From Tabrizicola soli (lineage in GTDB: Bacteria; Pseudomonadota; Alphaproteobacteria; Rhodobacterales; Rhodobacteraceae), in assembly GCF_015999335.1 (NCBI RefSeq), contig NZ_JAEACP010000010.1, positions 1 to 64,000 on the forward strand: DNA of 64,000 bases, given 5' to 3'. The stretch's first letter is position 1. Each line of letters starts with the position of its first letter. A program made the position numbers and the translations under genes. Under the pieces are notes generated by a model. That model saw only the letters and a program-made list of their open reading frames with translations, was not told where the DNA came from and did not search any database. This document shows, piece after piece, positions 28,594 to 51,823 of this stretch.

Positions 28594-28594
28594 A

Positions 28595-28616
28595 AACCTT
28601 CCCCGCGGGGAAGGTT
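28595..28616. promoter_or_regulatory. parS-like centromere palindrome 1
   Basis: A 22-bp perfect palindrome with core CTTCCCCGCGGGGAAG fills the gap between the recombinase stop and the parB stop. It can also fold as a hairpin between the convergent genes. Further copies lie within 2.6 kb, which fits a partition-site cluster. Confidence 0.8.
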
Positions 28617-29726: not shown

Positions 29727-29737
29727 GGCGGCCCCCT

Positions 29738-32323: not shown

Positions 32324-33025
32324 CTAGAGATACATGTGCCGGATCGTGTCGTCGCGCAGAAGGTCGGCGCTGGCCCCTTGCAGCGCGATCCGGCCGCGGA
32401 CGAGGAGATAGCCCCGCTCGGCGATGGACAGCGCGGTCTCGGCGTTCTGCTCGATCAGGAGGACGGCCTTGCCCTGGTCGCGGATGCGGGCGACGATCTG
32501 GAAATACTCGTCGATCAGCTTGGGCGAGAGGCCGAGCGAGGGTTCGTCCATCACCACCAGCCGCGGCTCGCCGATCAGGGCGCGGGCGAGGGCCACCATG
32601 GCCTGCTCGCCGCCCGACATGGTACCGGAACGCTGGTCCAGACGCTCGCGGATGCGGGGAAAGAGCTGCGCCATCTTCTCGATCTGCGCCGCGAATTCCA
32701 GCGCGGGGGCGCGGGCGGCATCGAAGGCGAGGCGCAGGTTCTCGCGCACGGTGAGGGTGGGAAAGAGGCGGCGGCCCTCGGGGACGAAGCCGACGCCGAG
32801 ACTGGCCAGCGCCTCGGTGCCGCAGTCGCGCACATCGCGCCCGGCGATGCGGACCTGCCCGCTTTCGGCGCGCAGAAGGCCGCAGATCGCGTTGAAGGTC
32901 GTGCTTTTCCCCGCCCCGTTCGGGCCGAGAAGGCAGACCATCTCGCCCTCGCCGACGCGCAGGGAGACCTCGCGCAGCATGGGCACGGTGCCGTAGCTGG
33001 TGTTGACCCGTTCCATCTCAAGCAT
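32324..33025 (-). CDS. livF: Branched-chain-amino-acid-type ABC transporter ATPase LivF
   Basis: 233 aa from ATG 33025 (AAGGCAG upstream; a start at 33046 is less likely). Walker A LGPNGAGKST, Q-loop VPEGRRLFPTLT typical of LivF, signature MSGGEQAMVALARAL, Walker B LVVMDEPSLGLS and H-loop LLIEQNAE are present. Overlaps livG by eight bases. Last gene of a four-gene minus-strand importer operon whose binding protein is encoded divergently at 36129. Confidence 0.92.
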   Translation of the reverse strand: MLEMERVNTSYGTVPMLREVSLRVGEGEMVCLLGPNGAGKSTTFNAICGLLRAESGQVRIAGRDVRDCGTEALASLGVGFVPEGRRLFPTLTVRENLRLAFDAARAPALEFAAQIEKMAQLFPRIRERLDQRSGTMSGGEQAMVALARALIGEPRLVVMDEPSLGLSPKLIDEYFQIVARIRDQGKAVLLIEQNAETALSIAERGYLLVRGRIALQGASADLLRDDTIRHMYL

Positions 33026-33809
33026 GTTGTGCTGCCTTCTGACCAAGGTAGGCCTCCTGCACGCGCGGCATCAGCCGCACCTCGGCGAACTGGCCGTCGG
33101 CGATCTTGCGGCCGTAGTCGATGACGGCCACCCGGTCGGGCAAAGCGGCGACGAGGCGCATGTCGTGTTCGATGATCAGGAACGAGAGGCCCGGCCGTTC
33201 CGCCATCACGCGGCGGACATCGGCCATCAGCGCGTCGGTGTCGCGGTCGTCCATGCCCGAGGAGGGTTCGTCCAGCATGATGACCTTCGGTTCGGAGGCC
33301 AGCGCGCGGGCGATCTCCAGCCGGCGGCGGTCGGCCTGGGGCAGGGCGCCGGCGAGCATGTGGCGACGGGCGTAGAGATGCGGCGAGATTGAGCGGATCA
33401 GCTCGGTGGCGCGCTCGGCGGCCTCGGTGAGTTCCGCCCTGGCCTTGCGGGGGCGCAAAAGCGCGTCGAGCACGCCGGAGCGGGTGCGCGTATGCATCCC
33501 GATCACCACGTTGTCGACCAGCGTCAGGTCGTTGAACAGGCGGCTGGACTGGAAGGTCCGCGCGATCCCGGCCGCGGCGATCCTGTGCGCGGGCCAGCCG
33601 GTGATGTCGCGTCCGTCGAGTTCCACCTTGCCGGAGCTGGGCCGGTAGATGCCCGAGATCAGGTTGAAGAGCGTGGATTTCCCCGCCCCGTTCGGGCCGA
33701 TGATGCACAAGACCTCGGACGGGTTCAGCGTCAGGTCGACATCGGCCACCGCGACCAGCCCGCCGAAGCGGATCGACAGGTTGGTGACCTGAAGGGCAGA
33801 GCGGGTCAT
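33018..33809 (-). CDS. livG: Branched-chain-amino-acid-type ABC transporter ATPase LivG
   Basis: 263 aa with Walker A IGPNGAGKSTLF, the LivG-specific long insertion after ARTFQSSRLFNDLTL, a signature region variant LPQADRRRLEIARAL (the family's usual LSYG/LPQG variation), Walker B VIMLDEPSSGMD and H-loop LIIEHDMRLV. Four-base overlap with livM. Partner of LivF in powering import. Confidence 0.91.
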   Translation of the reverse strand: MTRSALQVTNLSIRFGGLVAVADVDLTLNPSEVLCIIGPNGAGKSTLFNLISGIYRPSSGKVELDGRDITGWPAHRIAAAGIARTFQSSRLFNDLTLVDNVVIGMHTRTRSGVLDALLRPRKARAELTEAAERATELIRSISPHLYARRHMLAGALPQADRRRLEIARALASEPKVIMLDEPSSGMDDRDTDALMADVRRVMAERPGLSFLIIEHDMRLVAALPDRVAVIDYGRKIADGQFAEVRLMPRVQEAYLGQKAAQHA

Positions 33810-34990
33810 TGCGGGCCTCCGTAATGGCGCGGACGCTGCGGGAACAGGCCCTGGGGCCGCAGGATGAGGAACAGGATCACGATGACGCCGACGAACAGGA
33901 GCCGGTAATCCGCGAAGATGCGCAGCTTTTCCGGCAGGAGCGTGAGCAGGAAGGCCCCGAGGATCACCCCCAGCGTGTTGTCCATGCCGCCGACGATCAC
34001 CATGGTCATGATCGTGACCGAGACCAGGAAGGTGAAGTTGTCGGGCGAGATGTAGCTGACGTAGAAGGCGTAGATCGTGCCGGCGAAGGCGGCGAGGAAG
34101 GCGTCGACGCCGAAGGCCAGCATCTTGTACCAGACCACGTCGATCCCCTGGCAGCGCGCGGCCAAGGGGTCGGCCCGCAGGGCGTTCCAGGCCAGCCCGA
34201 CCCGGCTGTCGTGCAGGCGCTTGGCCGAGAGGATCGAGAGCGCGACCAGGGCGGCCGAGAGGTAGTAGAAATTGGCCTGGCTGGGCAGGCGGAAGCCGAG
34301 AACCTCGATCGGCTGGGCGAAGGAATGGCCGAAGATCGTGGGCGCCGGGATGCCGACAAGGCCGTTCGGGCCGCCGGTCCAGCTGAAGTTGTTCAGAAGC
34401 TGGTGCACGACGATGCCGAAGGCGATGGTGACGAGGGCGAGGTAGCTTTCCCGCGTGCGCATCGAGGGAAAGCCGAGGAGGAAGCCGAAGATCGTGGCGA
34501 CCACGGCGGCGACCGGCAGGGTCAGCCAGAACGAGACGCCGAAGTTCAGCGCCAAAAGCGCCGAGGTATAGGCGCCGATCCCGTAGGAGGCGCCGGTGGC
34601 GAAGTTCGGGATGTTGGCGCTGCCGAGCTGGAAGTTCAGCGCCAGCGCCAAGACGGAATAGAGAAGCGCGATGACCAGCAGGTGCAGGGCGTAGCTGGAG
34701 CCCTGCATGAAGAAGGGATAGGCCAGCACGATCCCCACGCCGAGGGCCAGGGCAGGGCGGCGTTGGGCGCGGAAGGCGGAGACGATGCGTTCCTCCAGCC
34801 CCGGGCGCAGTTGCAGCAGTGCGAAGATCGCGCCCATGACGGCGAGGAGGGCCACGACGACGGCGGTTTTCTCGCCCAGCAGGAAGGCGCCGAGCAGCGC
34901 CGCGCCGCCCAGCTGGACCCCGGCGACGATGGCGAGGTCAGGGCCGGTGGCCGGGCGCGGCTGGGCTAGCGAAAGCTCGTGGTTGGCCAT
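33806..34990 (-). CDS. livM: Branched-chain-amino-acid-type ABC transporter permease LivM
   Basis: 394 aa from ATG 34990 (GAAGGTG upstream); the open frame extends far upstream but only by overlap. Multiple hydrophobic segments from residue ~20. The BPD_transp_2 core begins near LLVIALLYSVLALALNFQLGSANIPNFATGASYG, and the LivM-type motif PSMRTRESYLALVTIAFGIVVHQ is present. N-terminal extra helices (~20-110) are a usual LivM variation. Confidence 0.9.
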   Translation of the reverse strand: MANHELSLAQPRPATGPDLAIVAGVQLGGAALLGAFLLGEKTAVVVALLAVMGAIFALLQLRPGLEERIVSAFRAQRRPALALGVGIVLAYPFFMQGSSYALHLLVIALLYSVLALALNFQLGSANIPNFATGASYGIGAYTSALLALNFGVSFWLTLPVAAVVATIFGFLLGFPSMRTRESYLALVTIAFGIVVHQLLNNFSWTGGPNGLVGIPAPTIFGHSFAQPIEVLGFRLPSQANFYYLSAALVALSILSAKRLHDSRVGLAWNALRADPLAARCQGIDVVWYKMLAFGVDAFLAAFAGTIYAFYVSYISPDNFTFLVSVTIMTMVIVGGMDNTLGVILGAFLLTLLPEKLRIFADYRLLFVGVIVILFLILRPQGLFPQRPRHYGGPQ

Positions 34991-34992
34991 GG

Positions 34993-35910
34993 TCACACCT
35001 TCTCGAACACGGGTTTGCCCAGGACGCCGCTGGGTTTCAGCACGAGGACGAGGATCACCAGGGCGAAGATGAACACCAGCCGGTAGGAGGCCCCGTCCGG
35101 GATCGTCATCTGCACCGTCGTGTCCACTCCGGCGATCAGCAGGCTGCCGAGGATCGCGCCCTGCATCGAGCCGAGCCCGCCGATGACGGCGGCGGAAAAG
35201 CCGATCAGGCCGAGCTGGACGCCGAAGTCGAAGCGGACCACGCCGGCGTGGCTGGCGAAGAACACCGCGCCGACCGCGCCGATGGCCGAGGCGATGAAGA
35301 AGGTGATGGCGAAGATCCGGTCGGGGCGGATCGCCATGAGGCGCGCCACGGCGCGGTCCTCGGCCACGGCGCGGATCCGCAGGCCGACGGGGGTGCGGTT
35401 CAAGAGCCAGAACAGCGCCGCGACCGTGGCCACCGAGACGAAGATCACGATCAGGCTGAAGACTGGGACCGCCACCTCGCCCAGGCGGAGGACCTCGGTC
35501 GTCAGCGCGGGGAAGGGCTTGGGGTTGGAGCCTTGCGGATAGAGCGTGCGGATCAGCTCGCGCACCACGGTGCCGAGGGCCACGGTCGCCACCAGCGCCA
35601 TCATCGCGGGGGCGGCGCGGAAGCGGCGGATCACCAGCCAGTCGACCAGCACGCCGAAGAGGCCGACCACCAGCGTCGCGGCGAGGATCGCGAGGATCAG
35701 CGTCGCGGTGCCGCCGTCGGGCACCAAGGTCACGGTGACGGCCTGGATCACGGCCAGCGCCACGAAGGGCGCGGCCATCGACACGTCGCCATGCGAGAAG
35801 TGGATGACGTCCAGGACGCCGAACAGAAGACTGAAACCAAGGGCGACAAGGGTATAGATACTCCCGAGCACCAGCCAGTTGAGCAGGTGCTGCGCGACCA
35901 GTGCGTCCAT
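34993..35910 (-). CDS. livH: Branched-chain-amino-acid-type ABC transporter permease LivH
   Basis: 305 aa from ATG 35910, with GGAGGAG seven bases upstream. Eight or so membrane helices; the opening LLNWLVLGSIYTLVALGFSLLFGVLDVIHFSHGD is characteristic of LivH, as are RIRAVAEDRAVARLM and GLGSMQGAILGSLLIAG. First gene of the importer operon, divergent from the binding-protein gene across a 218-bp control region. Confidence 0.91.
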   Translation of the reverse strand: MDALVAQHLLNWLVLGSIYTLVALGFSLLFGVLDVIHFSHGDVSMAAPFVALAVIQAVTVTLVPDGGTATLILAILAATLVVGLFGVLVDWLVIRRFRAAPAMMALVATVALGTVVRELIRTLYPQGSNPKPFPALTTEVLRLGEVAVPVFSLIVIFVSVATVAALFWLLNRTPVGLRIRAVAEDRAVARLMAIRPDRIFAITFFIASAIGAVGAVFFASHAGVVRFDFGVQLGLIGFSAAVIGGLGSMQGAILGSLLIAGVDTTVQMTIPDGASYRLVFIFALVILVLVLKPSGVLGKPVFEKV

Positions 35911-36128: not shown

Positions 36129-37262
36129 ATGAACGAACTGAAAACGCGGCGTCGTTCGGTGCTGGCCGGTCTCATGCTGGCCGGGGCGATGGCGGCCATG
36201 CCGGCGATGGCGCAGGACAAGCCCCTGATCAAGCTGGGTTTCATCGGCCCGATCTCGGGCGGGAACGCGGCGCAGGGCCTGGGCGCGCAGAACGGATTCC
36301 TGCTGGCGATCGAGCAGGCGAATGCGGGCGACTATCCCTACAAGGTCGAGCCGGTGGTGCTGGACGACGCCTCGGACCCGCAGACCGGCGTCGCGGCGGC
36401 GCTGAAGCTGGTCAACGATCCCGAGGTGATCGCGGCGACCGGCCACTGGAACAGCCCGGTGGCGCTGGCGACGATGCCGGTCTTCAACCGCTTCCAGATG
36501 CCGATGATCGTCTGGGGCGCGATCAGCCCGAAGATCACCGAGCAGAACCTGCCCGAGATCACCCGCGTCACGCCCACCCTCGTCACCGAGAACAAGCCCC
36601 TGGCGGAATGGGCGGCCACCGGCCTTGGCGCGAAGAAGATCGCGATCGTCGCCGATACTTCCGACTATGGCGTCGCCAATACCGAGGCCTTCCGCGGCTT
36701 CTTCACCGAGGCGGGCGGCGAGATCGTGTCCGAGGACCTGTTCCCGGTCGGCACCATCGACTTCCGCACCGCTCTGACCAAGCTGCGCGATGGCGGGGCC
36801 GAGGCGCTGTATTTCGGCGGCGTGATCGCCGAGGCGGGCATCCTGCGCAAGCAGATGGCCGAGGTCGGGCTGGACATCCCGATGATCGGGATCTCGGGCT
36901 TCTACGACCCCGAGTTCATCGCGCTGGCGGGCGACGCGGCCGAGGGCACGATGGTCAGCTATCCGGCGGCGCAGTCGAACCCGAAGCAGGATCAGCTGAT
37001 GGCGGATTACGCCGCGCGCGGCTTTGCCGAGGAAAGCAGCCCCTATACGAAATACGCCTATGACGCGACCAACATCCTGCTGGAGTCGATCGCCGCGACG
37101 GGGATCGAGGACAAGGCGGCGCTGGCGGCGGCGATCCGGGGCATCAGCCATGACGGCGCCCTGGGCGTGACCACCTTCGACGCCAACGGCCAGACCCAGA
37201 TCCCGGTCGAGATCGAGATCAAGGAGGTCAAGGACGGCGCCTGGGTGACCCGCGCCGAGTGA
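36129..37262 (+). CDS. Periplasmic binding protein of the Liv-type transporter
   Basis: 377 aa from ATG 36129 (GGGAG upstream; an earlier in-frame start is unsupported). Signal sequence with an RRR motif and hydrophobic core, cleaved after AMPAMA. The mature Leu/Ile/Val-binding-fold protein opens IKLGFIGPISGGNAAQGLGAQNG and has GHWNSPVALATMPVFN, KKIAIVADTSDYG and YAYDATNILLESI. The ligand could be an amino acid, amide or aromatic acid; the co-located flavin monooxygenase argues for the latter. It pairs with LivHMGF. Confidence 0.88.
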   Translation: MNELKTRRRSVLAGLMLAGAMAAMPAMAQDKPLIKLGFIGPISGGNAAQGLGAQNGFLLAIEQANAGDYPYKVEPVVLDDASDPQTGVAAALKLVNDPEVIAATGHWNSPVALATMPVFNRFQMPMIVWGAISPKITEQNLPEITRVTPTLVTENKPLAEWAATGLGAKKIAIVADTSDYGVANTEAFRGFFTEAGGEIVSEDLFPVGTIDFRTALTKLRDGGAEALYFGGVIAEAGILRKQMAEVGLDIPMIGISGFYDPEFIALAGDAAEGTMVSYPAAQSNPKQDQLMADYAARGFAEESSPYTKYAYDATNILLESIAATGIEDKAALAAAIRGISHDGALGVTTFDANGQTQIPVEIEIKEVKDGAWVTRAE

Positions 37263-37427: not shown

Positions 37428-38960
37428 ATGATCAGAACAGGTCAACAGTACAGGGATTCGATCCGGGATGGCCGGCGCATCTGGGTGAATGGCGAGCGGG
37501 TGGACGATGTCACCACCCATCCGCAGTTCAAGCCCCTGGTCGACATCCGCGCCCGCATCTTCGACATGCAGCACGAGGCCGCGCATCAGGAGCTGATGAC
37601 CGTGGTCGAGGACGGCGAGCGCAACGCACTCGGCTCGGCCCTGCCTTACAGCCAGGACGACTGGTGGGCCAAGCGCCGGGCGACCGACCACATGCTGAAC
37701 GAGATCGGCGGCGTCGTCACCCGCGTCGGCGACGAGACCGTGGGCGAGATGTGGTCGCTGTATGACGGCCAGGACGTGCTGAACGAGGTCGATCCGCAGT
37801 TCGGCAAGAACATCAAGGCGCATATCACCCGCGTCTTGCGCGAGGATCCGTTCCACGTCTCGGCCAATACCGACCCGAAGGGCGACCGTTCCAAGGCGCC
37901 GCAGGACCAGGACCCCGACATGCTGCTGCATGTGGTCAAGGAGACCGACGCCGGGATCGTGGTGCGCGGCGCGAAATACGAGACCGCGGCGGCCTATGCC
38001 AACCAGGCCTTCACCAAGCCGACCATCGCCAACTGGGGCAACAACGCGCTCTCGGACTATGCCGTGGGCTTCATCTGCGACCTGGGCAGCCCGAACCTGC
38101 GCTTCATCTGCCGCACCGGATTCGCCGGCCGGGCCGATGCGCGCGACTATCCGCTGGCGAACAAGTTCGACGAGGTCGACACCATCGTCATCTTCGACGA
38201 CGTGCTGATCCCCTGGGAGAACGTGCTGTTCTACCGCCATACCAAGGCGGCGACCTTCATCCGCGCCACCCTGCACCGCTATTCGGCCTTCGCCTTCGTG
38301 CAGCGCAACCTGAAGCTCGCCGACATGATGATCGGCGCGGCGCTGTTCAACGCGCGGCAGACCGGCCTGGACAAGCAGCAGGCGGTGCAGGAGAAGCTGG
38401 CGCAGCTGGCGGTCTACCGCGAGGGGATCAACGCGCACCTCACCGCCGCCATCGCGCTGGGGGAGCGGTCCCCGGCCGGGCTGATGATGCCGAACCAGTC
38501 GCTGCTTTATACCGGGCGGGTGCTGGCCTGTTCGCAGCTGCACGAGATGATGCATATCGCGCGCGAGCTGTGCGGCGGGCAGATCTGCGTGACGCCGGAT
38601 GTCGGGTCCTTCGAGAACCCCGAGACCAAGCCCTGGCTGGACAAGTACTATACCATCAACGACGAATGGCAGGCCGAGGATCGCCGCAAGCTTCTGGCCT
38701 TCGCGCGCGACATGCTGAACTCGGACTATGCCGGGCACCGGCTGACCTTCCAGCTGTTCGCCCAGTCCCCGCCCTTTGCGCATCTGGCGGCGGTCTACCG
38801 CAACTTCGGCTGGGACGGGCCCTTGGCTTTCGTCAAGGAAGCGGCCGGCCTGTCGGACCGGGTGATGGGCGGCAAGACCCTGTCCGCCGGCGACAGCGCG
38901 GTGTCGAGCTGGTTCTCGACCGACATCAGCACCCACGCCCGGCGCACCGCCGCCGAGTGA
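37428..38960 (+). CDS. FADH2-dependent monooxygenase, 4-hydroxyphenylacetate 3-hydroxylase family (HpaB-like)
   Basis: 510 aa, ATG 37428 with GAGGGATC upstream. The acyl-CoA-dehydrogenase-like fold of HpaB/PvcC large components: N-terminal domain (YRDSIRDGRRIWVNGERVDDVTTHPQF), middle beta domain (FICRTGFAGRADARDYPLANKFDEVDTIVIFDDVLIPW) and C-terminal helical bundle (GERSPAGLMMPNQSLLYTGR; LAFARDMLNSDYAGHRLTFQLFAQ). Such enzymes hydroxylate aromatic or heteroaromatic rings using reduced flavin from a separate reductase, here presumably the fusion protein at 41725. RidA and DUF1028 follow at short distance. The substrate is not inferable from sequence alone. Confidence 0.86.
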   Translation: MIRTGQQYRDSIRDGRRIWVNGERVDDVTTHPQFKPLVDIRARIFDMQHEAAHQELMTVVEDGERNALGSALPYSQDDWWAKRRATDHMLNEIGGVVTRVGDETVGEMWSLYDGQDVLNEVDPQFGKNIKAHITRVLREDPFHVSANTDPKGDRSKAPQDQDPDMLLHVVKETDAGIVVRGAKYETAAAYANQAFTKPTIANWGNNALSDYAVGFICDLGSPNLRFICRTGFAGRADARDYPLANKFDEVDTIVIFDDVLIPWENVLFYRHTKAATFIRATLHRYSAFAFVQRNLKLADMMIGAALFNARQTGLDKQQAVQEKLAQLAVYREGINAHLTAAIALGERSPAGLMMPNQSLLYTGRVLACSQLHEMMHIARELCGGQICVTPDVGSFENPETKPWLDKYYTINDEWQAEDRRKLLAFARDMLNSDYAGHRLTFQLFAQSPPFAHLAAVYRNFGWDGPLAFVKEAAGLSDRVMGGKTLSAGDSAVSSWFSTDISTHARRTAAE

Positions 38961-39013: not shown

Positions 39014-39433
39014 ATGATTCACAAACGCCTTCGCCCCTTCAACACCAAAGAGACCTATCCCGAGCAGAAGCTGGACAACGACCTGAGCCAGGGCGTCGTC
39101 GCCCGCGGCACGATGGTCTTCCTGCGCGGCCAGGTCAGCCAGGACCTGGACACGCGCGCCTGCCTGCATGTCGGCGATGCCGGCAAGCAGACGGAAAAGA
39201 CGATGCAGAACATCAAGATGCTGCTTGAGGAAGCGGGCAGCTGCATGGAGCACATCTGCCGCATCGTCGTCTACCTGACCGACATCCGCTATCGCGAGGC
39301 GGTCTATCAGGAGATGGGCAAGTGGATGAAGGGGGTGCATCCCTGCTCCACCGGGCTGGTCGTCCCGGCGCTGGCGCGGCCGGAATGGGTGGTCGAGATC
39401 GAGGTGACGGCCGTCATCCCCGATGCGGCCTGA
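39014..39433 (+). CDS. RidA-family protein (enamine/imine deaminase or related)
   Basis: 139 aa, ATG 39014. YjgF/RidA trimer fold: VVARGTMVFLRGQVSQDL, ARACLHVGD-type strand, KTMQNIKMLLEEAGSCMEHICRIVVYLTDIRYR and the C-terminal PEWVVEIEVTAV. It contains the conserved basic or near-basic position of the domain in the PALARPEW loop (the usual R of the active site). RidA members deaminate reactive enamines or act on ring-cleavage intermediates in catabolic operons, which fits its place after the monooxygenase. Confidence 0.85.
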   Translation: MIHKRLRPFNTKETYPEQKLDNDLSQGVVARGTMVFLRGQVSQDLDTRACLHVGDAGKQTEKTMQNIKMLLEEAGSCMEHICRIVVYLTDIRYREAVYQEMGKWMKGVHPCSTGLVVPALARPEWVVEIEVTAVIPDAA

Positions 39434-39445
39434 CGGGGGCACGCG

Positions 39446-40123
39446 ATGACCTTCTCGATTTCGGCAAGATGCGAGCGGACGGGGATGCTGGGCATCGCCG
39501 TCTCGTCCTCCTCGCCCTGCGTCGCGGCGCGCTGCGCCCATGCCAGGGCCGGGGTGGGCGTGGTGGCGACGCAGAACATCACCGACCCGCGGCTGGGGCC
39601 GAAGGGCCTGGACCTGATGGAATCCGGCCTGTCGGCCGAAGCGGCGCTGGAGGTGCTGAAGCAGGATGCGCCGCATCTGGAGTATCGCCAGCTGGCGCTG
39701 GTCGATGCGCAGGGGCGGACGGCCTCGTTCTCGGGCGCGAACACGCTGGGCACGCATCGGGTGGTGACCGGACCGGGCGTCGCGGCGGCGGGGAACCTCC
39801 TGTCCAGCCGCGCCGTGCCCGAGGCCATGGTCGCGGCCTTTGCCGCCGCCGCGGGGCAGGGGCTGGGCGACCGGCTGCTGGCCGCGATGCGGGCGGCCGA
39901 GGAGGCCGGGGGCGAGGAAGGGCCGGTGCATTCCGTGGGGATGCTGCTGGTCCGCAAGGAAGCCTGGCCGATCGCCGACCTGCGGGTGGACTGGGCCGAT
40001 GCGGACCCGATCGGCGCGCTGGCCGGGCTGTGGGAGCGGTGGAAGGGCGAGATGGAGGCCTATGTCTCGCGCGCGCTGAACCCGTCGCAGGCGCCGAGCT
40101 ACGGCGTGCCGGGCGATCTGTGA
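39446..40123 (+). CDS. DUF1028 family protein (Ntn-hydrolase-like)
   Basis: 225 aa. Begins MTFSISARCERTGMLGIAVSSSSPCVAARCAHARAGVG, the hallmark of DUF1028. GLDLMESGLSAEAALEVL, RQLALVDAQGRTASFSG and GPGVAAAGNLLSS also match. Structural relatives suggest an N-terminal-nucleophile-like hydrolase fold, but no general reaction is established. Twelve bases after the RidA gene, so part of the same operon; a ring-opening or amide-cleaving step downstream of the monooxygenase is plausible. Confidence 0.84.
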   Translation: MTFSISARCERTGMLGIAVSSSSPCVAARCAHARAGVGVVATQNITDPRLGPKGLDLMESGLSAEAALEVLKQDAPHLEYRQLALVDAQGRTASFSGANTLGTHRVVTGPGVAAAGNLLSSRAVPEAMVAAFAAAAGQGLGDRLLAAMRAAEEAGGEEGPVHSVGMLLVRKEAWPIADLRVDWADADPIGALAGLWERWKGEMEAYVSRALNPSQAPSYGVPGDL

Positions 40124-40249: not shown

Positions 40250-40612
40250 ATGAACGGGTTCGGACGTCTTGTGCGGCGTGTCATCGAGCGGGTCAGGATC
40301 GAGCGCGAGCTTGCCGCCCTGCCTGCGGAGGGGGCTGCGGATTTCGGCAGCACCGCGGGGGAACTGGCCGCGGCGTCGCGGATGAAGGCGGATGTGCCCG
40401 AGCGGATGGGCCGGATGGCCGAGAAGCTGGGCGCCGCCGGGGAATTTGCCGGGGTGGACCGCTACCGGGTGCTGGACATGGCGCGGGTATGCGACCGCTG
40501 CGGCGCGCGGCGGGTCTGCGGCCACGTGCTTTATGAGGACGGCGGGGCGGATCCCGCGGATTTCTGCCCGAACGCCGCGAATTACCGCGAACTGGTCGCA
40601 GGGCAGGCCTGA
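40250..40612 (+). CDS. Small zinc-ribbon-like protein (DUF6455 family)
   Basis: 120 aa from ATG 40250 with AAGGGA upstream. N-terminal helix-rich part (RLVRRVIERVRIERELAALP), then MGRMAEKLGAAGEF. The C-terminal cysteine cluster is CDRCGARRVCGHVL followed by FCPNAANYREL, a likely metal site. It matches the Rhodobacterales DUF6455 family, whose role is unknown. It lies between the monooxygenase operon and the LysR gene as a separate unit. Confidence 0.72.
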   Translation: MNGFGRLVRRVIERVRIERELAALPAEGAADFGSTAGELAAASRMKADVPERMGRMAEKLGAAGEFAGVDRYRVLDMARVCDRCGARRVCGHVLYEDGGADPADFCPNAANYRELVAGQA

Positions 40613-40680: not shown

Positions 40681-41616
40681 ATGCGCTTTACCCTTCGCCA
40701 GTTGAGCTATTTCGTCGCCGCCGGCGAGACCGGCAGCGTCACCCGCGCCTCGGAGCAGGTGAACATCTCGCAGCCCTCGATCTCGGCCGCGATCTCGCAT
40801 CTGGAGACGGAATTCGGCGTCCAGCTTTTCGTGCGCCACCATGCCCAGGGCCTGTCGCTGACCCCGGCGGGACAGCGGCTGATGGTGGCGGCCAAGGAGG
40901 CGCTGCGCAGCTCCTACAGCCTCTACGAGGTCGCGAGCTCGGCCATGGGCGCGGTGGCGGGGCCGATCAACGTGGGTTCGTTCCGCACCTTCGCGCCGCT
41001 GATCATGCCCGAGTTGTGGCGCGGCTTCGTGGCGCGCCATCCCGATGTGCGGATGCATGTGACCGAGGGCAGCGAGGCCGAGCTTCTGGAGGGCTTGCGC
41101 ACCGCCCGCATCGACCTGGCGCTGACCTATGAGATCAGCATGACCCCGGAGATGGAATTCGTGCCGCTGGCGGAACTGCCGACCTATGTCCTGCTGGCGG
41201 CGGATCATCCGCTGGCCGGGCGGCCCAGCCTGAAGCTGGCGGATCTGGAGTCCGAGCCCTTCGTCCTGCTGGACCTGCCGCTGACCCGGCAGTATTTCCT
41301 GTCGCTGTTCGATCGTGCGGGCTGCGCCCCCCGGATCGCGGCCGAGACCAGCGCGCCCTCGGCGCTGCGGTCCTATGTGGCGGCGGGGATCGGCTATTCG
41401 CTGATGACGGTGCGGCCGAAGAACATGGCGGCCGAGAACGGCCTGCCGCTGGCCTATGTCGAGCTTCTGGAGGACTGCCCGCCGATGAAGGTGGGCCTGG
41501 CCTATCTGAAGGAGCTGCGCCGGTCGCGCGTGGCCGAGGAGTTCGAGACCTTCTGCCGCGAGCTGATCCGCGAGGGCGGGCTGCCGGGCATGGTTCCCGC
41601 CGGAGGGACCGCATAG
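40681..41616 (+). CDS. LysR-family transcriptional regulator of the monooxygenase locus
   Basis: 311 aa, ATG 40681 after AGGAGA. The N-terminal winged helix (1-~62) has LRQLSYFVAAGETGSVTRASEQVNISQPSISAAISHLETE. The effector domain from ~92 is INVGSFRTFAPLIMPELW, LALTYEI, FVPLAELPTYVLLAADHPLAGR and GIGYSLMTVRP. That effector domain is clearly homologous to the C-terminal half of the reductase fusion encoded next, so both should sense related ligands. It probably binds TTTTCCG-N11-CGGAAA sites at 36010 and 41619. Confidence 0.9.
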   Translation: MRFTLRQLSYFVAAGETGSVTRASEQVNISQPSISAAISHLETEFGVQLFVRHHAQGLSLTPAGQRLMVAAKEALRSSYSLYEVASSAMGAVAGPINVGSFRTFAPLIMPELWRGFVARHPDVRMHVTEGSEAELLEGLRTARIDLALTYEISMTPEMEFVPLAELPTYVLLAADHPLAGRPSLKLADLESEPFVLLDLPLTRQYFLSLFDRAGCAPRIAAETSAPSALRSYVAAGIGYSLMTVRPKNMAAENGLPLAYVELLEDCPPMKVGLAYLKELRRSRVAEEFETFCRELIREGGLPGMVPAGGTA

Positions 41617-41643: not shown

Positions 41644-41724
41644 GCGTTCTTTCGCCGAAGCGGTCCCTGTTGGAAACATGGGCCGGAGGGGCGACGGGAG
41701 CCCCGGCGTGAAGGAGTCGCTATC

Positions 41725-42897
41725 GTGGACATGCAGCCCGACCAGGCCATCCGCAGCAAGTTCCTGGAAGGGATGAGCCACGCCGCCTGCACGGTGAACA
41801 TCGTCACGACCGACGGGCCCGCCGGGCGGGCGGGGGTGACGGTCTCGGCCATGGCCTCGGTCTCGGCCGACAGCGCGCGGCCGACGCTGCTGGTCTGCGT
41901 CCACCACCTGAGCCCGGCGGCCGCGCGGATCGTCGAGAACGGGGTTCTCTGCGTGAACGTGCTGCGCGACGACCAGTCCTATATCTCGGACACTTTCGCG
42001 GGCCGCTTCAAGGACGAGGTGGGCGACAAGTTCGACTGCGCCGAATGGACCGCCATGCCGTCCGGCGCGCCGCGGATCGTCGATCCGCTGGTCGCCTTCG
42101 ACTGCCGGCTGCTGTCGGCCGAACGGGTCGGCACGCACCACATCTTCCTGTGCGAGGTGCATGAGCTGCATGTGACGCGCGGCGGCTCGCCCCTGATCTA
42201 TGCCAACCGGGCCTATGGCGCCTCGATGCGGATCGAGGGGGCGAGCAACCTTGCCGTGGGGCGGGCGCGGGCCGGGGCGGGGCTGACGGTGGGCTGTTTC
42301 CACACCTTCGCGCCCTATGTGATGCCCCGGCTGATCCGGCAGATGGAGACCACGCCCCTGCGCCTGATCGAGGGCGACCAGAGGCGGCTGCGGGAGAGCC
42401 TCGCCTCGGGGGAATGCGAGGTGGCGCTGCTGTATGACATCGACATCGAGCCGGAGTTCGAGCGTCTGCCGCTGGCCGAGCTGGAGCCCTATGTGCTTCT
42501 GCCCGACAATCACCGGCTTGCGCGGCAGTTCGAGGTGATGCCCGAGGACCTGGCCGAGGAGCCGATGGTGCTTCTGGATGCGCCGCCGAGCGCGGAGTAT
42601 TTCCTGGGCCTGTTGCGCGCGGCGCGGGTCGAGCCGCTGGTGGCCTACCGCTCCGCCTCGTTCGAGATGGTGCGGGGCATGGTCGGGCATGGGCTGGGCT
42701 ATGCGCTGCTGGTCACGAAGCCGGCGGCGGACATGACCTATGACGGGATGAAGCTGGTGACGCGGCCGCTGGTCGGGGGCAACGCGGCCTCGCGGATCGT
42801 GCTGGCCCATGCCAGGGGCGCGGAGCTTTCCCCGGCGGCCGCGCGGTTCGCCGCACTTTGCCGCCGGGTGTTCGGGCCGGAGATGCCGCAGGGCTGA
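41725..42897 (+). CDS. Flavin reductase fused to a LysR-type ligand-binding domain
   Basis: 390 aa from GTG 41725 (AAGGAG eight bases upstream; ATG 41731 also possible). Residues ~1-170 are an HpaC-like FMN-binding-split flavin reductase: GVTVSAMASVSADSARPTLLVCV, VLCVNVLRDDQ, CEVHELHV and PLIYANRAYG. Residues ~186-385 are a LysR substrate-binding domain without any helix-turn-helix: GLTVGCFHTFAPYVMPRL, CEVALLYDIDIEPEFERLPLAELEPYVLL and GHGLGYALLV. This half is closely related to the effector domain of the LysR protein just upstream. It probably supplies reduced flavin to the HpaB-like oxygenase, gated by substrate, analogous to the MarR-like domain on the Acinetobacter 4-hydroxyphenylacetate reductase C1. 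The gating idea is inference. Confidence 0.85.
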   Translation: MDMQPDQAIRSKFLEGMSHAACTVNIVTTDGPAGRAGVTVSAMASVSADSARPTLLVCVHHLSPAAARIVENGVLCVNVLRDDQSYISDTFAGRFKDEVGDKFDCAEWTAMPSGAPRIVDPLVAFDCRLLSAERVGTHHIFLCEVHELHVTRGGSPLIYANRAYGASMRIEGASNLAVGRARAGAGLTVGCFHTFAPYVMPRLIRQMETTPLRLIEGDQRRLRESLASGECEVALLYDIDIEPEFERLPLAELEPYVLLPDNHRLARQFEVMPEDLAEEPMVLLDAPPSAEYFLGLLRAARVEPLVAYRSASFEMVRGMVGHGLGYALLVTKPAADMTYDGMKLVTRPLVGGNAASRIVLAHARGAELSPAAARFAALCRRVFGPEMPQG

Positions 42898-42900
42898 GGG

Positions 42901-43463
42901 TCAGGCGGGCGCGACGGGGACCACCAGCGCGCGCGCCAGGGGGCCGGGCTTGGCCAGCACCTCGCCCGAGGCGATGGCGGTATCGCCCGGTTTCAGCGCC
43001 AGCGCCGCGGTGGCGCTGGCGAGGGTCCAGTCGCCGAGCGCATGGATCACCGTAAAGCCGCCGGGGTCGGGGCGGAGGGGGCCGGCGGCGTCCAGCATCC
43101 GGGCCGGGCCCGGCTGCCAGACCGCACGCGCGACCATCACGTTCAGCACCCGGACCATGCCGCCAAGCGGGGTGCCGACCGGGGTCAGGCCGGAATCGAA
43201 GCGGCAGGGTTCCCCGGGGGCCAAGAGCGTGGAATGGCCGGCGAAGTCCAGCCGCAGGCCGGCGCCTTCGATCACGGTGATGATCCGCTCCACCCCCGGA
43301 AAGGCCGAGAAGGGCGCCTCGGCGGCGATGGTGGCGCGGCTGATGCGCAGCTCGAACGCGTCGCGGTCGGCGGTCTCGGGCCTGAGGCAGATCTCGTCGG
43401 TGGTGCCGAGGCCGTTCTTCCAGGGCAGGGTGACATAGCCCGTGGCGGGCAGGGGATGCAGGG

Positions 43464-43467
<4 letters not shown>
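42901..43467 (-). CDS. hutD: HutD/Ves family cupin-like protein
   Basis: 188 aa. The family opening YVTLPWKNGLGTTDEI is exact, followed by FELRISRATIAAEAPFSAFPGVERIITVIEGAGLRL and the second barrel lobe near TPLGGMVRVLNVM. A bicupin fold; HutD is thought to modulate histidine-utilisation flux, but its biochemical role is not settled. It overlaps the aspartase gene by four bases (ATGA), so the pair is co-translated. There are no hut genes in the window. Confidence 0.82.
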
Positions 43468-44882
<1,415 letters not shown>

Positions 44883-44888
44883 CTGCGG

Positions 44889-45680
44889 TCAGCCTTTTGC
44901 GAGCAGGTGCCAGGGCGCCGGGCCTGGGATCTTCCGTCCCGGCAGGTGGAACTCTCCCGCCGCGCCGATGAGGACGGGAACCGGAGCCGTCCCCTCCTGC
45001 CGGGCAAGGTAGCGGCCGGGCCGCGGGCGGCAGAGGTCGGGGTGCAGGCCGGTGCCGTCGGCGGTGGTCTCGACCAGCCAGGGGGCGCCGAGAAGCCGGT
45101 TGGCCACCTGGATGTCGCCCGTGCGGATATGGTCGCGGATTGCGGTCGACGAGGCGCGAGCGCCGGCCAGCGTCACCTGCGCAAGGCTGCCCACGGCAAA
45201 GCCATGGGCGCGGCCAAGGGCGCGGAGCAGGGCCATGTCGCCGGAGCGGCGGTGACCGAAGCGGAAATCCGGCCCGGCATGGACCGCATGGATGCCAAGG
45301 CCCGCGACCAGCACCTGGTCCACGAAATCCTGCGGCGAGAGGCTGGCGAAGTCGCGGTCGAAGCGGGGGGCGAAGATGTAGTCGATGCCATGCGGCGTCA
45401 GCAGGAGGGGCTTGAGCCCGGCGGTGGTCAGGCGGAAGGGCCGGGACTCGCTGCCGAAAAAGCTGCGGGGATGCGGTTCGCAGGACATGACTGCCACGGG
45501 CCGCCCTCTGGCCTGGCGCCGCGCCGCGCGCAGCAGCGCCTGGTGGCCCAGGTGGAAGCCGTCGAAATTCCCCAAAAGGAGGACGGCCCCCCGCAGCGGA
45601 TGCCCCAAAGGCAATGCCCCGGAAACCACTTGCGGCAGAAACGGGCCACAGGCGACCGGGGACGGGGCAGGCAGGGACAT
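44889..45680 (-). CDS. ribF: FMN adenylyltransferase (RibF N-terminal module without riboflavin kinase)
   Basis: 263 aa. The nucleotidyltransferase motif GNFDGFHLGHQALL (~residues 37-50), VMSCEPHPRSFF, FAPRFDRDFASLSPQDFVDQVL, GPDFRFGHRRSGD and RASSTAIRDHI are those of bacterial bifunctional RibF. The C-terminal flavokinase domain is missing or reduced to ~60 atypical residues, against ~310 aa for complete RibF. It would make FAD from FMN only. As a second, plasmid-borne copy near a flavin-dependent monooxygenase it could raise local FAD supply. First gene of the operon with aspA and hutD. Confidence 0.83.
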   Translation of the reverse strand: MSLPAPSPVACGPFLPQVVSGALPLGHPLRGAVLLLGNFDGFHLGHQALLRAARRQARGRPVAVMSCEPHPRSFFGSESRPFRLTTAGLKPLLLTPHGIDYIFAPRFDRDFASLSPQDFVDQVLVAGLGIHAVHAGPDFRFGHRRSGDMALLRALGRAHGFAVGSLAQVTLAGARASSTAIRDHIRTGDIQVANRLLGAPWLVETTADGTGLHPDLCRPRPGRYLARQEGTAPVPVLIGAAGEFHLPGRKIPGPAPWHLLAKG

Positions 45681-45762: not shown

Positions 45763-47454
45763 TCAGGAAGTCCGATCCGCCGCCAGCCAGTCCGGGAGCG
45801 TCCGGGACGCATGGCCGGTCAGGGCCGCCTCGGCGCAGGCGGCAAGGCCGCCGAAGCGGACGGCGCGGCCGGAGAGTCCGGGGCCGTAATGCGCGTATTT
45901 GCCCGAATTGGTCATCAGGGCGCGGGTTCCGGGGGGAAAGACGGGCTCGGAGATCGAGCACCAGCAGAGATCGGGGAGGACCTGCACGCCTGCCTCGGTC
46001 AGCCGGGCGAGGATGCCGTCGGCCTGCGCCTGCTGCATCACCGCGCGGCCGGCGGTGACGATGGTGGCAACCGCCACCTTGCGCCCGGCCAGGGCATCGG
46101 CCAGCGCGCGGCATTCCAGGATCGAGGCATGCGGGCTGCCGATCGCGATCAGTTCCACCTTCTCCGGCCCGTCGTTCAGGGTGCGCCAGCCCGCGGCCAT
46201 GTCGGCGCGGGTGATGCGGGCATGGTCGGCATCCGGGGCGATGCGCCGCGCCTCGGGGGTGACGCCTTCGACATGCAGCATCGGCGCGGCGGACGTGGTG
46301 CCGAAGGCGGCGCAGAGTGCCTTGAGGTTTTCCGGTGAGGGCTGCGCCCCTGCCAGCCCGCGCAAGAGCGGGATGCGGTCGGGCGCGGCCTTGCCGGCCA
46401 GCCAGCCGATCAGGGGCCAGAAGGCGTCGTCGATCCCATCGGGCAGGTCGATGTCGAGGATCCGTGTGGCCTGCCGGTTCTCGTCCAGATAGACGCCGGA
46501 CAAGGGCGCCCGGCCGGTCATCGCGCTGCAGAGGTCGAGGAAATCCGGGTGCTTGGCGGTACGGGCGCCAAGGACGCTGTTGGCATAGATCACCGCGTTG
46601 GATTCCGACCAGGCGATGGCCTCGCCCTCCGCAGGCGCGGTGTCGAGGAGATAGGGCGAGCAGGTGAAGGTCGGCTGGCAGCCCATGCGCACATAGGCGT
46701 CGGCCAGGCGCTGCGCCGGGCCGCCGAAGCTGGGCGGCACGCCCTGGACGCGCCAGTTGGCGTGATCGACCGAAATGGCGTTCATCGTGGTCGGGATGCG
46801 GACGCGGGCGCCCATGTCTGCCATCTTCTCGGCGAAGGTCAGGTTGGCGGGGCTGGCGTAGATGCAGCCGTCGATATGGCCCTGGGTCACGTCGATCAGC
46901 CGCGTCGCGCCCTGGTTCACCGCCATGGCGCAGAGAATGCGCATGGCCTGCGCCGTTGCCTCGCCCTGGGCGCCGTCCAGCATGGCGCGGTCATGCCCGG
47001 TCAGCGTGAGCGCCCCGGTGGCCGGGGGGGCGATGGCGAGGGTCATTCCGTCGGCTTCCAGCTCCGTCTCGGTGATGCGGGCGGTTTTCGCCGTGGCCAG
47101 CCGGGCATGGGCCTCGGGCGAGAGGCGCAGCACGGGCAGGGGCTTGCCGAACATCCCGGCCGCGATCAGCGCGCCGAGGGTCACCACATCCTCGGGCTCG
47201 CTGAAGACCAGCGCCGCCGGGGCCTTGCCGTTCAGCGCCATGTCGAGAAGGACGCCCGAGCCGGTGCAGGAGCCGCGGGTGCCCGGCATCACCAGGATGC
47301 GCCCGGCCATGCTTTGCCCGGCCAGCGGGTGATGCACGTCGATGACCTGGCCCGTCGCCGGATCGACCCCGCCCCAGAAGCTGAGGGGTTCGGTGGTGGC
47401 GAGGATTCCGGCCTCGGCCTGACCGGAGAGGATGAAGCGGGCGGAGAGGGTCAT
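45763..47454 (-). CDS. Aconitase X, cis-3-hydroxy-L-proline dehydratase-like (fused subunits)
   Basis: 563 aa. The N-terminal ~140 residues form the small swivelling domain ([49 protein letters not shown]). The large catalytic domain follows ([63 protein letters not shown]). Fusion of both parts defines type I AcnX, characterised as cis-3-hydroxy-L-proline dehydratase giving delta1-pyrroline-2-carboxylate. The start overlaps the epimerase stop by four bases. Last gene of the minus-strand hydroxyproline operon; the reductase for its product lies at 52849. Confidence 0.86.
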
Positions 47455-48452
47455 TTGACGACAAACCCGTGGGCGAAGGGGTCGCGGTCGTCGATGAAGA
47501 TCGTGTTGTAGCCGGTCATCCGGGCCCAGCCGGCGACCGAGGGGATGATCGCATCGCGGCCCGCGACGGAGGCCGCCGCCTCGACCCGGCCCTTGAAGAT
47601 CGAGCCGATGATGGATTCGTGGTGGAAGTCGTCGCCGACCTTCAGCCTGCCCCTGGCGGCAAGCTGTGCCATCCGGGCCGAGGTGCCGGTGCCGCAGGGG
47701 CTGCGGTCGATGGCCTTGTCACCGTAGAAGACGGCATTGCGGGCATGGGCGCCCTCGACCGTGGGCTTGCCGGTCCACAGGATATGGCTGAGGCCGGTGA
47801 TCGCGGCATGTTCGGGATGGGTGAAGTCGTATTTCGCGTTCAGCGCCGCGCGGAGTTTCGGCGACCAGCCGATCAGCTCTCCCGCCGTGTGGTCGGCCAT
47901 GTCGCGGAAATTCTTCTGCGGCTCGACGATGGCGTAGAAGTTGCCGCCATAGGCCACGTCGACCACGATCTCGCCCAGGCCCTCGACCTCGGCGGTCAGG
48001 CCTTCGGCGTAGAGGAAGGCGGGGACGTTGGTCAGGCGCACCTCCTCGACGAAGCGGCCTTCCTGGCGGTATTCGATGTCCACCTTGCCGGCCGGCGCGT
48101 CGATCGACAGGCGGCCGGGGGTGCGCGGGGTGATCAGGCCGTTCTCGATCCCCATGGTGATGGTGCCGATGGTGCCGTGGCCGCACATCGGCAGGCAGCC
48201 CGAGGTCTCGATGAAGAGGACGGCGACGTCGCAGTCGGGGCGCGTGGGTGGGTAGAGGATCGAGCCGGACATCATGTCATGCCCGCGCGGTTCGAACATC
48301 AGGCCGGTGCGGATCCAGTCGAACTCGCGCAGGAAATGGGCGCGGCGCTCCAGCATGGTCGCGCCCTCCAGCCGGGGGCCGCCGCCCGAGACGAGGCGCA
48401 CGGGGTTGCCGCAGGTGTGACCGTCGATGCAGGAGAAGGTATGCGTTGCCAT
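47451..48452 (-). CDS. 4-hydroxyproline 2-epimerase (proline racemase family)
   Basis: 333 aa. Two catalytic cysteines are present: Cys90 in [13 protein letters not shown] and Cys253 in [14 protein letters not shown], which indicates a two-base epimerase rather than the Ser/Thr-containing trans-3-hydroxyproline dehydratase. The opening [16 protein letters not shown] is typical of hydroxyproline epimerases. The reaction is trans-4-hydroxy-L-proline to cis-4-hydroxy-D-proline, which the next gene upstream would oxidise. Overlaps the AcnX gene (ATGA). Confidence 0.89.
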
Positions 48453-48459
48453 GGGGGCC

Positions 48460-49704
48460 TCAGAAGCGTTGCGGCGAGAAGGGGGTCAGGTCGATGGCGG
48501 GCGGCGCGCCGGTGACGAGGTCGGCGACCAGCCGGGCGGTCGCGGTGGCCTGCGTCAGGCCGAGGTGGCCGTGGCCGAAGGCATAGGTGACGCGCGGCGT
48601 GGCGCGGGCGGGGCCGATGGCGGGCAGCGTGTCGGGCAGCGAGGGGCGGAAACCCATCCACTGCTTGCCGCCGGTGGGCTTGAGGCCGGGCAGGAAGGCC
48701 TGCGCCTTCTTCAGCATCGCTTCGGCCCGGGCGAAGTTCGGCGGCAGCTTCAGCCCGCCGAGTTCCACGGCGCCGCCGATGCGGATGCCGCTGGTCAGGC
48801 GGGTGACGACAAAGCCGTGGCCGCCGAAGGTGACCTGGGTGCGCAGGTCGAAGGCATCGGGGGGCAGCGTCGTGTTGTAGCCGCGTTCCGTTTCCAGGGG
48901 GATGCGGTCGCCGAGGCCGCGCGCCAGATGGTGCGAATGGGCGCCGGCGGCAAGGACGACATGCCCGGCGGTGCGGGTTTCGCCGCCGGAAAGGGCGAGC
49001 GTCACGCCGTCGCCGGCGGGGGCGAGGGCCAGAACCTCGGCCCGGTGGATCTGGCCGCCGTTGGCCCGGAAGCGGTCGGACAGGGCCAGGGTGAAATCCT
49101 TCGGCTCGGTGACCGACTGCCAACCCGGCGTGAAGGTGCCGCGCAGGAAGCGGGGCGCGAGGCCGGGTTGCAGCGCGTCCATTTCGGCGCGGCCCATGTG
49201 GCGGACCTCGATCCCGTGGTCCAGGCGCACCTGCCAGCCGGGCAGGGCGGCGCGGAACTCGGCCTCGGATTCGTAGACCTGGAGGTTGCCCTCCTTGCGC
49301 AGCATCGGCAGGGTTCCGGTGGCGGCGAGAAAGGGTTCCAGCTCGGCGCGCGACAGGTCCATCAGCGCGGTCTGCGCCACGGTGGAGCGCCGCACCTGCG
49401 CCGGCGAACAGGCCCGCCAGAAGCGCAGCATCCAGGGTGCGATCCGCAGCGCATAGGCGGGCGGGACGCTGAGCGGGCCGAGCGGGTCCAGCAGCCATTT
49501 CGGCGCCTTGCGCAGGATGCCGGGCGAGGCGAGCGGCAGGATGTCGGAGAAGGCCAGCGCCCCGGCATTTCCCGCCGATGCGCCCGCCGCCGGGCCCTCG
49601 CGGTCGACGACCGTGACCGCAAGGCCGCGCATCTGCAGGGCCAGCGCGGCGGAGAGGCCGACGACACCGGCGCCGACGACGATCACTTCGGAGTTGGGAG
49701 ACAT
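48460..49704 (-). CDS. FAD-dependent D-amino-acid dehydrogenase, D-hydroxyproline dehydrogenase-like
   Basis: 414 aa. The N-terminal Rossmann loop VIVVGAGVVGLSAALALQMRG and the DAO-family GASAGNAGALAFSDILPLASPG are present. C-terminal FAD contacts are RPSLPDTLPAIGP and FGHGHLGLTQA. This matches DadA-type flavoproteins found beside hydroxyproline epimerases, which oxidise cis-4-hydroxy-D-proline to delta1-pyrroline-4-hydroxy-2-carboxylate. Seven bases before the epimerase gene and seven after the ABC ATPase gene, so tightly in the operon. Confidence 0.87.
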   Translation of the reverse strand: MSPNSEVIVVGAGVVGLSAALALQMRGLAVTVVDREGPAAGASAGNAGALAFSDILPLASPGILRKAPKWLLDPLGPLSVPPAYALRIAPWMLRFWRACSPAQVRRSTVAQTALMDLSRAELEPFLAATGTLPMLRKEGNLQVYESEAEFRAALPGWQVRLDHGIEVRHMGRAEMDALQPGLAPRFLRGTFTPGWQSVTEPKDFTLALSDRFRANGGQIHRAEVLALAPAGDGVTLALSGGETRTAGHVVLAAGAHSHHLARGLGDRIPLETERGYNTTLPPDAFDLRTQVTFGGHGFVVTRLTSGIRIGGAVELGGLKLPPNFARAEAMLKKAQAFLPGLKPTGGKQWMGFRPSLPDTLPAIGPARATPRVTYAFGHGHLGLTQATATARLVADLVTGAPPAIDLTPFSPQRF

Positions 49705-49711
49705 GATCGGC

Positions 49712-50434
49712 CTAATGCGTGGCGGCGAGGAACTTCTGCAGCTCGGGGTCCTTCGGCGCGTCGAAGAGCTGCTCGGGCGCGGCGATCTCGGCCATGATGC
49801 CCTGATGGAAGAAGGCGACGCGGTCCGAGACCTCGCGCGCGAACTTCATCTCGTGCGTGACGCAGATCATCGTCATGCCTTCGGAGGCCAGCATCCGCAG
49901 CGTGTCCAGAACCTCGCCCACGAGCTGCGGGTCCAGCGCCGACGTCACCTCGTCGAAGAGCATGTAGTCGGGCGACATCGCCAGGGCGCGGGCGATCGCC
50001 ATGCGCTGCTGCTGGCCGCCCGACAGGCGCGAGGGATAGACCTTGAGCTTGTCGCCGAGGCCGACGTGGTTCAGCTGTTTCGCCGCCTCGGCCTCGGCCT
50101 GGGCTTTCGACCGCTTCAGCACCTTGACCTGGGCCAGCATCACGTTCTCCAGCACGGTCAGGTGCGGGAAGGCGTTCCATTGCTGGAAGACGATGCCGAT
50201 CTTCTGGCGCAGCTTGTTCAGGTCGGTGGACTTGGCGTGGACCTCGATCCCGTCCACCAGGATGCGGCCGGAATCGATCGGCTCCAGCCCGTTGATGCAG
50301 GTCAGTAGCGTCGACTTGCCCGAGCCCGAGCCGCCGATCACGGTCAGCACCTCGCCCTTGGCCACGGTCAGGTCGATCCCCTTGAGGACCTTCAGGTTGC
50401 CGAAGGACTTGTGGACGTTTTCGATTTCAATCAT
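49712..50434 (-). CDS. Polar amino acid ABC transporter ATPase
   Basis: 240 aa. Walker A IGGSGSGKSTLL (first G-x-S variation of GlnQ/HisP), Q-loop VFQQWNAFPHLTVLENV, signature LSGGQQQRMAIARAL, Walker B YMLFDEVTSALDPQLVGEVL and H-loop CVTHEMKFAREV. It overlaps the upstream permease by eight bases. Energises import of the hydroxyproline-type substrate used by the following enzymes. Confidence 0.92.
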   Translation of the reverse strand: MIEIENVHKSFGNLKVLKGIDLTVAKGEVLTVIGGSGSGKSTLLTCINGLEPIDSGRILVDGIEVHAKSTDLNKLRQKIGIVFQQWNAFPHLTVLENVMLAQVKVLKRSKAQAEAEAAKQLNHVGLGDKLKVYPSRLSGGQQQRMAIARALAMSPDYMLFDEVTSALDPQLVGEVLDTLRMLASEGMTMICVTHEMKFAREVSDRVAFFHQGIMAEIAAPEQLFDAPKDPELQKFLAATH

Positions 50435-51083: not shown

Positions 51084-51090
51084 TGCCCCC

Positions 51091-51756: not shown

Positions 51757-51783
51757 GGCCGCCCCGGAGAGGATGCTGGAATG

Positions 51784-51812
51784 CGTGATGCGGGGAGTGC
51801 CCCCGCATCACG
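51784..51812 (-). terminator. Intercistronic hairpin after the binding-protein gene
   Basis: CGTGATGCGGGG (51784-51795) pairs with CCCCGCATCACG (51801-51812), loop of five. Without a T-run and placed between binding protein and permeases, it probably stabilises the binding-protein mRNA and lowers downstream expression rather than ending transcription fully. Confidence 0.65.
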
Positions 51813-51823
51813 TCACGTCCGTA

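Follow-up and report, generated by a model that had tools for sequence, protein, structure and literature searches.

A fused flavin reductase at the end of an oxygenase gene cluster

We analyzed a window of 64,000 nucleotides of Tabrizicola soli DNA (contig NZ_JAEACP010000010.1, positions 1 to 64,000). One gene in this window joins a flavin reductase to the effector-binding domain of a LysR-type regulator. The fusion gene is the end of a conserved cluster encoding an HpaB-like oxygenase, a RidA family protein, a DUF1028 protein, and a LysR regulator. The genes and features run in the following order, the last three genes lying beyond the fusion on the opposite strand.

32324..35910, minus strand: divergent livFGMH-type ABC transporter genes
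36129..37262, plus strand: branched-chain-amino-acid-type ABC substrate-binding protein (livK)
37428..38960, plus strand: HpaB-like flavin-dependent oxygenase, the likely partner (PF11794 and PF03241; under the NCBIfam HpaB equivalog cut-offs)
39014..39433, plus strand: RidA family protein (PF01042)
39446..40123, plus strand: DUF1028 protein (PF06267)
40250..40612, plus strand: DUF6455-like protein (22.1 bits, under the 23.7 cut-off)
40681..41616, plus strand: adjacent full-length LysR regulator (HTH_1 and PF03466; Pfam)
41711..41716, plus strand: likely ribosome-binding site AAGGAG, 8 nt ahead of the GTG of the fusion gene (from the sequence)
41725..42897, plus strand: fused flavin reductase/LysR effector-domain protein (390 aa, GTG start)
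41773..42219, plus strand: flavin reductase domain PF01613 (residues 17-165; Pfam)
42220..42282, plus strand: linker (residues 166-186; predicted helix 176-185)
42283..42873, plus strand: LysR effector-binding domain PF03466, HinK-like (residues 187-383; Pfam and HinK match)
42901..43467, minus strand: HutD family protein (PF05962)
43464..44882, minus strand: aspartate ammonia-lyase-like protein (over the NF008909 subfamily cut-off, under the aspA equivalog cut-off)
44889..45680, minus strand: FAD synthetase-like protein (PF06574)

The DUF6455-like gene occupies the spot taken in some related clusters by an M20 amidase. Farther along the minus strand are genes for AcnX, proline racemase, and a DAO-type oxidoreductase (45763-49704), followed by amino-acid-type ABC transporter genes (49712-52633), which together resemble a hydroxyproline catabolic operon. 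These genes raised pyrrole-2-carboxylate as a possible substrate, for which we found no support in the open-access literature among the matches listed. On the other side of the cluster, genes for a tyrosine recombinase and a ParB/RepB-like protein, together with one more long gene (27550-31030), suggest that the contig may be a plasmid or chromid. Small overlapping minus-strand genes at 26831-27477 resemble, by eye, a VapC/AbrB-type toxin-antitoxin pair.

The fusion is a real, conserved domain combination

A preliminary description of this DNA had read the gene as one 390-aa frame consisting of a flavin reductase and a complete LysR effector domain, without a DNA-binding part. The frame and the Pfam matches agree with this reading: the frame has no internal stops over its 390 aa, PF01613 scores 98.1 bits (cut-off 27), and PF03466 scores 114.5 bits (cut-off 28). 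At E ≤ 0.001, the Pfam matches to the fusion include no HTH and no MarR family; the N-terminal winged HTH PF00126, present in the adjacent LysR, was not matched. Structure prediction likewise bears out both halves, as the AlphaFold2 model has two confident domains (mean pLDDT 85.7, pTM 0.64). The join between them is weak at residues 160-170 (low pLDDT), and at this pTM the relative orientation of the modeled domains is uncertain.

How widespread is this architecture? We searched with the window protein, scoring 7998 candidates, and among the best 120 of 1597 matches at E ≤ 1e-3 (including the window's own cluster), 120 of 120 carry both PF01613 and PF03466, giving at least 120 two-domain clusters. 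A second search, using a member about 42% identical as query, again returned both domains in 120 of 120 among the matches listed. The two lists share nine repeats and each includes the window protein's cluster, so there are at least 231 two-domain clusters in all. Within the same family, 10 of 198 genomes contain a near full-length match at E ≤ 1e-60, and there are matches in 5 of 385 genomes at the class level at E ≤ 1e-70 (three with both halves, two with the reductase half only) and in 6 of 398 at the phylum level (four and two, respectively), the window's own genome being included in each count. The fusion is also found in 6 of 72,556 records of a plasmid collection at E ≤ 1e-40, four of them from Paracoccus. 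A divergent branch (L060 to L062 and Aminobacter L097) retains both halves, at 37-39% identity.

Since every listed protein in each search has two domains and 10 of the 198 same-family genomes carry the fusion, it is neither a chance nor an assembly join. A frame error or chimeric assembly, considered as an explanation, is ruled out by the stop-free frame, the same-family matches, and the 231 listed clusters with both domains (the window's own included), together with the purifying selection on the effector half described below. The fusion is thus confirmed as a real, conserved domain combination that recurs in many bacteria. Databases already name its members “LysR substrate-binding domain-containing protein” or “flavin reductase”. 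Among the matches listed from the open-access literature, where most subscription papers are missing, no title or abstract opening mentioned a LysR effector domain attached to a flavin reductase; DUF1028 had no match in that literature.

Three listed relatives (P0277, P0318, and P0349) have a shortened effector half, with total lengths of 248-292 aa. These are perhaps sensors being lost, or assembly or sequencing errors.

The reductase half is shared with stand-alone relatives

Comparison of 40 fused and 50 stand-alone relatives, with three distant stand-alone rows and three shortened fusions excluded, identified 37 positions of the reductase half at which the same residue is at least 93% conserved in both. 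The active site therefore looks to have been kept; seven positions are conserved in the fusions only. The fusion stays below the cut-offs for the named subfamilies, scoring 109.7 bits against 205.95 for the HpaC equivalog (TIGR02296, NCBIfam), 140.3 against 254.75 for the RutF equivalog (TIGR03615, NCBIfam), and 42.9 against 340 for the C1-type reductase (NF045919). We read the protein as the probable NAD(P)H:flavin reductase component of a two-component oxygenase.

Fused and unfused forms are intermingled in a reductase tree of 96 rows, whose bootstrap had not settled. Mapping the fused label onto the tree takes eight changes, and starred branches force four or more of these. In one genome (G372), an unfused copy, L057, groups with the fusion of the same genome, L058, which is consistent with sensor loss. 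Gain and loss are not distinguishable from these counts, and the effector tree is compatible with one origin, so the fusion may have arisen once or repeatedly.

The effector half is constrained and HinK-like

Purifying selection acts on the effector half, all 12 pairs compared having a dN/dS far below 1. By the Nei-Gojobori method, values ranged from 0.02 to 0.39 in the effector half and from 0.01 to 0.19 in the reductase half, and were higher in the effector half for 10 of the 12 pairs; the pairs have sequences in common, and some show extensive synonymous divergence.

Where did this domain come from? The preliminary description had noted its resemblance to the LysR gene directly upstream, and the resemblance is clear (33% identity over 231 aa, E 1e-31). 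It had also taken the effector half to come probably from that gene, a claim that the phylogeny does not support. For both the fused domain (39-40% identity) and the adjacent LysR (222 bits), the best solved match is HinK, orthology being left aside. We built an effector tree of 87 domains, comprising 40 fusions, 18 cluster LysRs, 27 other LysRs (mostly the best-scoring loci from the fused-domain search and so not a random sample), HinK, and 2ql3. In this tree, 17 of the 18 cluster LysRs, including the adjacent one, fall with ordinary LysRs in a fusion-free set (support 99/90). The remaining one, the regulator of locus L017, joins HinK at modest support (93/77). Constraining 30 core fusions and 10 adjacent-type LysRs to one clade, with rows picked after the tree was seen, cost 72 log-likelihood units (p-AU 3.75e-5). 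The tree and the AU test rule out the adjacent LysR as the source of the fused domain, which is instead nearer to HinK and the L017 LysR by sequence. In mean identity, the core fusions average 38% to HinK, 40% to the L017 LysR, 30% to adjacent LysRs, and 31% to other LysRs, and the adjacent-type effector domains average 34% to HinK.

Of 32 core fusions, at least 91% share each of T194, D218, E314, R317, Y339, D340, and G341. The corresponding HinK residues are T, E, E, R, Y, D, and G, and those found most often among 10 adjacent-type LysRs are T, S, A, R, E, N, and G. Ordinary LysRs also frequently have D218, R317, D340, and G341, which leaves E314 and Y339 as the informative positions. Two divergent fusion branches deviate from the conserved set at 218 or 314, and partly at 194 and 339. 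By our own alignment to BenM, T194 and D218 presumably correspond to S99 and T128 in the BenM ligand cleft. That one ligand switches both the adjacent LysR and the fused reductase, as the preliminary description proposed, is only a guess, as the fused domain does not come from that LysR; the fusion has D where adjacent LysRs have S at 218, and the two differ at 314, 339, and 340 as well. In favor of the idea, HinK is the best solved match of both.

Gene neighborhoods of fused and unfused reductases

The core order HpaB-RidA-DUF1028-LysR-fusion is common to loci of Rhodobacter, Gemmobacter, Pseudogemmobacter, Rhizobium, and Szabonella (L008 to L012). Two Paracoccus plasmids have the same order with an M20 amidase gene (annotated argE) between DUF1028 and LysR. 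Across 34 fusion loci, which are not independent events since some are near relatives (e.g., three Labrys) and some contigs are short, HpaB is present in 18 (one of them, L039, having it in pieces), RidA in 19, and DUF1028 in 20; 12 have none of the three. We searched 16 fusion genomes for HpaB, of which 15 had been picked for having no HpaB seen in the locus and some are incomplete assemblies; 12 gave no HpaB-like match at E ≤ 1e-20. The other four comprise two genomes with weak 29% matches, one with a 41% match containing a stop, and G372 with its expected 81% neighbor. The partner is thus not always HpaB, and an obligate pairing is not supported by these mostly preselected genomes.

Several loci place the fusion in other company. 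In L038, L040, and L042, the genes immediately ahead of it encode a Rieske oxygenase and an FMO-like flavin oxidoreductase, with a 4-base overlap in L040, where the oxidoreductase is MSMEG_0569-like but under the cut-off. RidA and DUF1028 are present at these loci, and their genomes gave no HpaB match. In L023 (4990-10342), L024, and L025, from Neptunicoccus, a Rhodobacteraceae MAG, and Amylibacter, the fusion lies near tryptophan 2,3-dioxygenase and M20 peptidase genes, hinting at a different ligand. On the divergent branch, in L060 (6704-10773), L061, L062, and L097 (10642-14664), it adjoins a glutamine synthetase-like gene; where looked at, there is an amino acid permease gene at L060, L062, and L097 and a TetR regulator gene at L060 and L097.

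Similar clusters also contain unfused reductases. Five unfused loci were reached via the reductase (L027, L055, L056, L057, and L059), and HpaB, RidA, DUF1028, and LysR surround two of them (L055 and L059). Sixteen plasmid records have an HpaB-like match, and seven were opened by that match. In five of these, an unfused flavin reductase gene 30-56% identical to the fusion's reductase half adjoins HpaB: Rhizobium L106, Aminobacter L107, Bacillus badius L109, and the unannotated records Caballeronia L110 and Halomonas L112. In the other two, L108 and L111, the query found no reductase. As these five loci were chosen via HpaB, they establish that the pairing of HpaB with an unfused reductase exists and do not give its frequency. 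This fits a reductase half that serves an HpaB-like oxygenase, to which the sensor would be an optional addition.

A proposed model of ligand-gated flavin reduction and its alternatives

A known problem of two-component monooxygenases is that free flavin reductases oxidize NADH wastefully. We propose that the fusion addresses this problem. The N-terminal half would reduce free flavin for the cluster's HpaB-like oxygenase, probably FAD given the FAD synthetase-like genes near the cluster. The C-terminal half, a LysR effector domain of the HinK type, would have been co-opted as an allosteric module, binding a pathway substrate between its two lobes. Ligand binding would close the domain, and the reductase would be released or stimulated. 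Only a short stretch separates the sensor from the conserved R-x-Y with which the reductase ends, so closing could pull on the edge of the active site. Without substrate, the reductase would be held back and reducing power would not be wasted. The ligand would most likely be a small heteroaromatic acid such as imidazole-4-acetate, although we regard an imidazole-acetate-type ligand as rather less likely than not. What the data show are the domains and their conservation, the gene cluster, the unfused relatives in similar clusters, and the kinship with HinK; that the domain binds a ligand, which ligand this is, in which direction control runs, and which oxygenase is served are inferences.

We give ligand gating of the fused reductase through its effector half a probability of roughly 0.52. 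In its favor are the completeness of both domains, the conserved reductase positions, the constraint on the effector half, the cleft residues, the HpaB cluster, the resemblance to the histamine pathway, and the precedents of HinK and C1. Against it count the 12 of 34 loci lacking HpaB, RidA, and DUF1028, the 12 of 16 mostly preselected genomes lacking an HpaB-like match, the higher effector-half dN/dS in most pairs, the departure from the conserved residues on the two divergent branches, the occurrence of four of these residues in many ordinary LysRs, the uncertain domain orientation, and the Rieske oxygenase gene preceding the fusion in L038, L040, and L042. Gating would in any case be optional, since similar clusters have unfused reductases.

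The effector domain might instead be a docking, oligomerization, or stability module, or hold substrate near the oxygenase, without controlling turnover. The unfused reductases in similar clusters and the variation of partners between loci would suit such a role, which we nonetheless consider unlikely; the residues that we assign to the ligand cleft are among the domain's most conserved in core fusions, as ligand binding predicts. Less likely still, the fused domain could pair with the LysR regulator, making the reductase a co-regulator that couples flavin/NADH state or ligand to transcription. LysR effector domains form dimers, and a LysR matching the adjacent one lies inside the fetched locus in 15 of 34 cases, directly upstream on the same strand in nine; in three Labrys genomes, a 68% LysR is placed by coordinates about 1.5 kb beyond the fetched stretch. 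Yet that gene stands apart from the Labrys fusion, 16 of the 34 loci have no adjacent-type LysR in or just beside them, and the two effector domains are of different lineages and only 33% identical. The three shortened relatives and the L057/L058 grouping might suggest that the fusion arose by chance and left an effector half now in decay, but this is very improbable given the dN/dS values and the at least 231 clusters with both domains.

If ligand gating holds, the fusion would offer a modular design for substrate-gated cofactor supply and put LysR effector domains to work outside transcription. The unfused relatives in similar clusters are ready controls for the LysR-sensor reductase, making gating testable by simple kinetics.

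Comparison with known systems

By profile, sequence, or fold, the fusion is related to the short-chain flavin reductases HpaC, RutF, TftC, and CobR, which we take to be single-domain proteins; most chains of the matched structures have about 150-200 residues. Nearer are the stand-alone reductases of L055, L059, L106, and L107, which are 50-60% identical to the reductase half and share a neighborhood with HpaB, RidA, DUF1028, and LysR, but lack the effector domain.

On the sensor side, HinK (PDB 3FZV, 6M5F) is a LysR of Pseudomonas histamine catabolism that has an HTH and regulates transcription, whereas the fusion has a reductase in place of the HTH. A review describes HinK as responding to imidazole-4-acetate with a weak affinity of 1.56 mM and cites mutant studies that place this ligand between the lobes (PMC8231116). 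The histamine pathway enzymes given in another paper are an FAD monooxygenase, an enamine deaminase, amidases, and an aspartate ammonia-lyase (PMC6467879), a set that resembles, by description, the HpaB, RidA, DUF1028/M20, and AspA-like genes of the window. The RidA and AspA-like genes were set against HinL and HinI by description only.

The closest parallel in design is C1 (AbHpaC; PDB 5ZC2, 5ZYR) of Acinetobacter baumannii, which the preliminary description had invoked and which a review supports (PMC10816480). Like the fusion, C1 has an N-terminal flavin reductase and a C-terminal domain of a transcription-regulator family. It serves a two-component flavin monooxygenase, p-hydroxyphenylacetate 3-hydroxylase, and the fusion's similar role is the one proposed above. 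In C1, substrate binding to the MarR domain relieves self-inhibition of the reductase, and the review calls substrate stimulation of the reductase uncommon apart from C1 (PMC10816480). The C-terminal domain is of MarR type in C1 and a LysR effector domain in the fusion, and ligand control has been demonstrated for C1 and is only proposed here. The fusion matches 5zc2 at only 34.3 bits; it would work like C1 if our inference holds, yet it is not a member of the C1 family. Though we put the odds a little short of even, these proteins may be a large ligand-gated flavin reductase family spanning several catabolic settings, in which a HinK-type sensor has been reused as a redox-enzyme switch, a second, unrelated fold for the problem that C1 solves with its MarR domain.
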